Below, piece by piece: positions 10,036 through 33,027 of a stretch of 64,000 bases of DNA. Made by a program: the position numbers and the translations under genes. The notes under the pieces are model-generated. The model was not told the origin of the DNA, ran no database searches, and saw only the letters and a list, made by a program, of their open reading frames with translations. This DNA is from Albidovulum aestuarii (GTDB taxonomy: Bacteria; Pseudomonadota; Alphaproteobacteria; Rhodobacterales; Rhodobacteraceae): the NCBI RefSeq assembly GCF_029961185.1, contig NZ_JASBQQ010000001.1, forward strand, positions 476,552-540,551. Reading direction: 5' to 3'. Position 1 is the stretch's first letter. Every line of letters begins with the position of its first letter.

Positions 10036-10060
10036 GTAGGGTGCGCATTCATTGCGCACC
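10036..10060 (+). repeat. intact GTAG-headed REP
   Basis: A GTAG tetranucleotide followed by an 8-bp stem GGTGCGCA / TGCGCACC with a TTCAT loop. It is identical to the copies next to the RAYT gene. It lies in the 334-base non-coding stretch 9857-10190, which otherwise holds the degenerate REP, the AAGTCAAGGC repeat, and a GGGGAGGGGATGGGG G-rich run; no gene is seen there. Confidence 0.75.
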
Positions 10061-32380: not shown

Positions 32381-32911
32381 ATGTCCCGCTACCGTCGCCC
32401 GACCATCCCCGGCGCCACGGTCTTCTTCACCGTCGCGCTCGCCGACCGCCGCTCGGACCTTCTGGTCCGCGAGATCGGGACGTTGCGCAAAGCCGTGCGG
32501 GCGACACGGGCGGAGCGGCCCTTTGCGATCGATGCATGGGTGGTCCTGCCCGATCACATGCATTGCGTTTGGACCTTGCCGAAAGGCGACGCGGATTTTT
32601 CGACGCGCATGGCCGCGATCAAGGCCCGGTTCACGCGTGACATCCGTAGGTCGGGGTTCACCCCGACTCCGCCCGCCAATCCATATGGTGCGAGGGCCGG
32701 ACGGAAGAGAGTCGGGGTGAACCCCGACCTACAAAAGGATGAAGCGCCGGTTTGGCAGAAACGGTTCTGGGAACATCACATCCGGGACGAGGCGGATTAT
32801 CAGGCGCATGTCCGGTATTGTTGGATCAACCCCGTCAAACACGGATTGGTCGAACGGCCCGAGGATTGGCCGTATTCGTCATACCACCGCGACGGCGGTG
32901 TAATCCCGTAG
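32381..32911 (+). CDS. REP-associated tyrosine transposase (RAYT)
   Basis: Single-strand endonuclease of the IS200/TnpA-like HUH group that acts on REP hairpins. The 176-residue product shows the HUH pair in VVLPDHMHCVW (about residues 54-64), the core QKRFWEHHIRD, and the catalytic Tyr in YCWINPVKHGLV. Codons for about residues 89-117 (GFTPTPPANPYG to VGVNPDLQ) are made of an 87-base REP pair inserted in frame. The TAG stop is itself part of a GTAG-headed REP (32908). Intact, so probably able to act on its REPs. Confidence 0.9.
   Translation: MSRYRRPTIPGATVFFTVALADRRSDLLVREIGTLRKAVRATRAERPFAIDAWVVLPDHMHCVWTLPKGDADFSTRMAAIKARFTRDIRRSGFTPTPPANPYGARAGRKRVGVNPDLQKDEAPVWQKRFWEHHIRDEADYQAHVRYCWINPVKHGLVERPEDWPYSSYHRDGGVIP
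32646..32732. repeat. REP inverted pair (BIME) inside the RAYT coding sequence
   Basis: A perfect 23-base inverted repeat (32646-32668 and 32710-32732) with a 41-base spacer. Each arm has a GTAG head and an inner hairpin GTCGGGG/CCCCGAC with a TTCA or TGAA loop. Total length is 87 bases, a multiple of three, so the reading frame stays open. It belongs to a different REP family from the GTAG-GGTGCGCA copies but has the same GTAG head and a TTCA loop. Confidence 0.9.
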
Positions 32912-32932
32912 GGTGCGCATTCATTGCGCACC
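32908..32932 (+). repeat. GTAG-headed REP overlapping the RAYT stop codon
   Basis: GTAG, then GGTGCGCA / TGCGCACC with a TTCAT loop. The TAG at 32909-32911 is the RAYT stop codon. An inverted copy 70 bases on (33003-33027) makes a REP pair. Confidence 0.88.
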
Positions 32933-33002: not shown

Positions 33003-33027
33003 GGTGCGCAATGAATGCGCACCCTAC
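33003..33027 (-). repeat. GTAG-headed REP, opposite orientation
   Basis: Exact reverse complement of the copy at 32908. In the orientation of the accessory gene at 33047-33748 it begins 19 bases after that gene's stop codon. Confidence 0.88.

Follow-up and report, generated by a model that had tools for sequence, protein, structure and literature searches.

A REPIN-like pair of GTAG hairpins inside a RAYT gene and linker hairpins in related Rhodobacteraceae genes

Many Rhodobacteraceae genes for REP-associated tyrosine transposases (RAYTs) carry, as judged by sequence comparison, the hairpin class of their own genome's REPs in the segment encoding the loop between helix alphaC and strand beta4. 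We analyzed one RAYT gene with an 87-base insert at this site, located in a 64-kb window (the whole stretch of DNA that was analyzed). With a probability of roughly 0.55, we consider these 87 bases to be a REPIN-like pair in a disordered alphaC-beta4 loop that is kept as nucleic acid, likely as a cognate target retained within the gene.

The RAYT gene and its internal REP pair

The ORF at 32381-32911 (forward strand) encodes a protein of 176 amino acids, which matches the profile NF047646 for REP-associated tyrosine transposases (E 4e-54, 182 bits vs a cut-off of 80). A Pfam search of this protein gave no match, the name being supplied by NCBIfam. The E. coli transposase TnpAREP (PDB 4er8), the only solved relative found, matches with an E value of 5e-45 and 54% identity and superposes on the AlphaFold model of the window protein (mean pLDDT 84.7) with a Z score of 23.2 and an rmsd of 1.3 over 144 residues. 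Both proteins have the same fold and the same HUH, W-Q, E-H, R, and Tyr residues: W125, Q126, E131, H132, and R135 correspond to W94, Q95, E100, H101, and R104 of the E. coli enzyme. They would fit the E. coli-like subclass 2.2 (RAYT group 2) and are also common to subclass 2.4 of the TnpAREP proteins. The window protein combines the RAYT fold with an HUH motif (H59-M-H61, 32555-32563, forward strand) and a single tyrosine, Tyr146 (codon 32816-32818, forward strand), presumed catalytic from the family. H59, H61, and Y146 are invariant across 46 sequences, and the HUH motif is also aligned in 4er8.

Inside this gene lies an inverted repeat with arms at 32646-32669 and 32709-32732, which are 100% complementary and 39 nt apart. 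A preliminary description had reported a perfect repeat of 23 bases; its perfection holds, and the arms are 24 nt long. Each arm consists of a GTAG head, a 7-bp stem, and a TTCA loop, as originally described. The first REP, GTAG-GTCGGGG-TTCA-CCCCGAC, is located at 32646-32667 on the forward strand (the perfect arm reaches 32669), and the identical 22-mer lies inverted at 32711-32732 on the reverse strand (the perfect arm begins at 32709), with the GTAG heads outermost and the spacer at 32670-32708 between the arms. GTAG head, short palindromic stem with loop, and arrangement as an inverted pair are the hallmarks of GTAG-type REPs. The element spans 29 codons in frame with the ORF (32646-32732) and is positioned between H59/H61 and Tyr146. 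The earlier reading of a RAYT gene whose coding sequence contains REPs of a second family is supported. We rejected a chance palindrome: the internal 22-mer had 0 matches in 100 shuffles of the window, and when its 38 residues were re-encoded 20,000 times with synonymous codons, a 24-nt arm was attained 0 times.

In the AlphaFold model, a helix (residues 73-90) is followed by low confidence over most of 91-124, a strand (130-133), and a helix (137-153) containing Tyr146; the insert loop is predicted to be disordered (pLDDT about 44). The sequence alignment with 4er8 falls into two blocks, 1-86 and 124-171. Based on this alignment, the superposition, and the positions of helix and strand, we place the insert between alphaC and beta4 (elements named beta3, alphaC, and beta4 according to the text of PMC6006769), a site at which E. 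coli TnpAREP has about 6 residues. The first REP overlaps the 3′ end of the region encoding the DNA-binding helix alphaC (alpha3; residues 73-90 of the model, 32597-32650, forward strand). This helix has a REP-binding role in the E. coli enzyme (PMC8266576), and in the model the insert is located near those protein parts that contact the REP there. E. coli REPs have bulged stems, whereas those described here are perfectly paired.

Recurrence and nucleotide-level conservation of linker hairpins

The same genome contains a second RAYT (70% identity), in which a pair with another stem, GTAG-GCCGGGC-TTCA-GCCCGGC, occupies the identical site and frame. To look beyond this genome, relatives were collected from a family sample and 80 named loci, yielding 146 distinct RAYT genes. 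One or more GTAG hairpins were found in the linker of 56 of them, all 56 in Rhodobacteraceae, and such hairpins are almost absent from the body of the coding sequences outside the linker. A quirk of a single gene was rejected on the grounds of the paralogue and these 56 genes. The linker stems belong to classes A (TCGGGG), B (CCGGGC), C (GCGGGG), E (GGTGGGG/T), F (GGTGGGCA), and G (GATGGGTG).

The comparison of homologues also revealed insert-free genes (L007, L008, L009, L018, and others) alongside insert-bearing genes within the genus. Among parsable relatives outside Rhodobacteraceae (Stutzerimonas, Pseudomonas, Bradyrhizobium, and others), whose linkers are mostly 18-19 residues long, no linker REPs were found; this absence covers close relatives only, because the motif script did not parse many of the weak class-level matches. 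For samples at class and phylum level, the longest match listed outside the family spans ∼456 nt, compared with 435-441 nt without an insert. About ten insert-bearing long linkers show decayed arms or lost heads, which, together with the insert-free near-orthologues L007 and L009, indicates that the element is dispensable.

For codons aligned within classes, we determined the synonymous difference, defined as the fraction of codons that are unlike although they encode the same residue. Values for the arms lie at 0.03-0.09, those for the spacer at 0.51-0.69, and those for all other parts of the gene at 0.40-0.55; since the arms were picked via hairpin detection, this comparison is biased towards conservation. 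The difference between arms and spacer shows that the constraint acts on DNA or RNA and not only on the protein, and because the spacer is near synonymous saturation while the arms are held, the inserts are old. According to the preliminary description, homologues encoding the same residues with other codons and without an inverted repeat would speak for conservation of the protein. We found the opposite, arms that are frozen at synonymous sites next to a spacer that is not, and conservation at the protein level alone was rejected.

It is very improbable that the REP-encoded peptide serves the enzyme while the DNA palindrome is incidental. The reading frame is almost constant within each linker class, and type-B linkers keep a common peptide (LPVV.SGRYAGLKPGL), as a function of the peptide would predict. 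Such a function, however, accounts neither for the frozen synonymous sites nor for the finding that re-encoding the peptide with synonymous codons hardly ever yields such arms. In addition, the peptides are unlike between classes and occupy a loop that is predicted to be disordered.

The head is conserved as well as the stem. When stems of at least 7 bp were detected without any head requirement, 81 of 91 carried GTAG or CTAC, and the rare Leu codon CTA, which is part of CTAC, occurs in 6/593 cases in the cores vs 52/159 in the linkers. Variable stem pairs switch jointly on both sides between classes (U-A, G-C, or C-G at columns 6-21 and G-C, A-U, or C-G at columns 11-16), which would fit either replacement of the REP class or compensatory change. 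The dinucleotide CT beside the internal hairpins, a candidate for cleavage, is constant only in type A.

Conservation of perfect arms would also be expected if a long hairpin in the transcript lowered translation or called RNase III, thereby keeping the nuclease scarce. The internal pair folds stably as RNA (–64.3 kcal/mol, z –8.1 vs shuffles) and as single-stranded DNA (–36.3, z –7.5 vs shuffles), and a precedent for control by a hairpin exists in IS200, as cited in PMC3733652. We nevertheless regard control at the mRNA level as unlikely. Linkers of types F and G and some of type E contain a single REP and cannot form a long hairpin, yet they still keep the stem and the GTAG/CTAC head, which favors REP recognition over a plain RNA roadblock. 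Moreover, a plain RNA hairpin need not match the REP class of the genome.

Two further observations concern individual linkers. Nested in that of L132, a RAYT gene of Histidinibacterium lentulum, is a partial copy, GTAGGCCGGGCTGTAGGCCGGGCTTCAGCCCGGC, which looks like the insertion of one REP into another. In L065, L090, L053, L061, and L136, several linker REPs combine a perfect stem with a mutated head (GTAA, GCAG, CTGC, GTAC) and provide a natural series on the role of GTAG.

Match between internal, flanking, and genomic REPs

Like most of its relatives, the window RAYT gene is flanked by GTAG-headed REPs, whose stem differs from that of the internal pair, as already noticed in the first reading. 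One is located at 32908-32932 on the forward strand (GTGCGCATTCATTGCGCAC), and its inverted partner at 33003-33027 on the reverse strand. The RAYT gene takes its TAG stop codon from the GTAG head of the former (32908-32911), an arrangement common among relatives. GTAG supplying stop codons and REPs inside other genes were previously described by Di Nocera et al. (2013, PMC3733652). Clear REP hairpins of the window are almost all found at the RAYT gene; the exception is a solitary intergenic REP of the flanking class at 10036-10060 (GTGCGCATTCATTGCGCACC), with a degenerate GTAGGGTGCTTGCTCGTACGCACC ∼160 bases upstream.

Among the 42 genes having both internal and flanking REPs, the class is the same in 33 (shuffles: mean 8.6, maximum 17), and an exact 22-mer is common to both in 21 (shuffles: mean 3.9, maximum 10). 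Unusual loop variants are also shared between internal and flanking REPs (L023, L099, L063). We then counted REPs genome-wide by pattern searches with exact stems, internal copies included; L054, L094, and L063, whose stems are variant or degenerate, were counted among the "other" genomes. Stem A is present in 2, 3, 10, 15, and 30 copies in the five genomes with a type-A RAYT and in at most one copy in 37 others, type-A REPs reaching 10-30 copies in relatives of this type. Stem B was found 2-21 times in eight type-B genomes (at most once in 34 others) and stem C 5-65 times in 13 type-C genomes (at most five times in 31 others). Rank tests gave p values of about 1e-8, uncorrected for shared descent, and neither descent nor linkage is fully removed from this association. 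After subtraction of the internal copies, 0 exact A or B copies are left in the genome of the window gene and 0 exact B copies in genomes G013 and G018, and the remaining genomes keep the pattern. Outside RAYT genes, 26 of 31 REP copies are intergenic in a sample taken mostly from one genome.

The preliminary description had pictured a transposase gene that contains a target of its own kind. This is borne out for most relatives by the class match and the genome counts. The self-regulation that it also proposed, by cleavage of the gene or by a hairpin in the mRNA, would be a hypothetical consequence. It does not apply to the window gene, where the internal class differs from the flanking class and is not amplified: the genome-wide count that had been suggested gave two exact type-A copies, both inside the gene, far from the high copy number of a REP family. 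Elsewhere in this genome, near relatives of the internal REP are confined to the two arms of an intergenic inverted REP pair (L003 1501-1578, G000:C12:273037-273114), which are of unlike stem types (GGGCGGGG and GGCCGGGG).

The internal REPs could be tolerated debris, a reading that we hold possible though not probable. REPs often insert near RAYTs, and within the coding sequence only the disordered loop would tolerate an insertion in frame; the perfection of the arms would then stem from a recent insertion event or from conversion, either by genomic copies or of one arm by the other. The predicted disorder of the loop, the decay of some arms, and the intragenic REPs known from other genes (PMC3733652) agree with this, as does the class match with the flanks, which is the expectation from local insertion. 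Quentin et al. (2018, PMC6006769) judged such insertions to be of little impact. The saturated spacer, however, points to old insertions while the arms are frozen, and three genomes have no exact genomic donor for type B. In the genome of the window gene, G013, and G018, no exact type-B copy exists besides the internal ones, so that their perfection cannot be due to present-day refreshment by copies elsewhere in the genome. Conversion from arm to arm alone would keep the arms alike, but would leave unexplained why four genes remain identical to one another.

We favor a target kept in the gene and infer the following mechanism. The gene would become single-stranded at the replication fork or in the transcription bubble, and the RAYT may then recognize and nick the GTAG hairpins of its own gene. 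If it can do so, the gene itself would be part of the REP population served by the enzyme. A possible benefit would be self-limitation or easier exchange of the segment.

Relation to known elements and segment exchange

Quentin et al. (2018, PMC6006769) reported in-frame REPs inside tnpAREP genes as unique to subclass 2.4, in which a variable domain separates beta3 from alphaC. Just as in the window gene, these REPs lie between the HUH and Tyr motifs, and REPs flank the gene too. However, subclass 2.4 is abundant in Cyanobacteria and Bacteroidetes, whereas the insert described here, after helix 73-90 and before strand 130-133, occupies the alphaC-beta4 site in a Rhodobacteraceae group that is putatively E. 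coli-like. The text of PMC6006769 reports neither synonymous constraint nor class matching for subclass 2.4, both of which were found here. With two inverted REPs, GTAG at the outer ends, and a short spacer, the pair resembles a REPIN or BIME, but it is located within the RAYT's own coding sequence. Intragenic REPs (PMC3733652) and Rickettsia palindromic elements (RPEs) are likewise short in-frame palindromes, often dimers coding for 20-30 residues. They are reported in repair, replication, and other host genes, whereas here the host is a transposase gene, always with the same loop of the protein and with several stem classes. REPs inside RAYT genes were not found in PMC3116915, PMC3686654, PMC2817692, and PMC12306157. 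Because of the in-frame REPs in tnpAREP genes and the intragenic REPs elsewhere, this kind of element is already known. Relative to the freely accessible article texts, what appears to be new is the alphaC-beta4 site, its occurrence in the putatively E. coli-like group of Rhodobacteraceae, the constraint at synonymous sites, the agreement of REP classes, and the exchange of segments.

Such an exchange is apparent in the window gene. In coding blocks outside the linker, it is 80-96% identical to the insert-free gene L007, with which it also shares the flanking REP pair; from the helix end to WQK, it resembles type-A genes. By this comparison, the window gene is a mosaic, in which a segment of type-A descent (helix end, linker, and WQK; approximately 32606-32764, forward strand, limits estimated) lies within a backbone whose flanking REPs belong to the GTGCGCA family. 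The segment comprising helix end, linker, and start of beta4 has evidently been exchanged between RAYT genes. In a tree based on the core only (134 columns, poorly resolved), the stem classes are scattered, and a single clade of type-B cores was rejected (AU p 0.002).

The helix residues differ between REP classes: GAIK is found in A, B, C, and E and RKIK in F, and insert-free genes with GTGCG-type flanks mostly show RLIK, SIIK, or SVIK. Among insert-free genes, the mutual information between helix motif and flanking REP class is 1.51 (shuffled maximum 1.39). Since helix and linker adjoin, their association with the class may be due to linkage or descent. We propose tentatively, and with some doubt, that helix, linker, and beta4 form an exchangeable specificity cassette whose coding DNA holds a copy of the hairpin that it enables the enzyme to recognize; recombination of the cassette would swap specificity and target together.

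These findings bear on how RAYTs are paired with their REPs and on the joint persistence of enzymes and repeats. A REP of the same class inside the RAYT gene is a sequence label tying the enzyme to a repeat family, and the natural RAYT variants, with helix residues varying with class, are a set for finding the determinants of REP specificity. The genes also present a case of a coding sequence under constraint as nucleic acid, which the encoded enzyme may itself exert. Within the helix, residues 77-79 (window numbering) vary with the flanking REP class even in insert-free RAYTs and may represent a specificity code.
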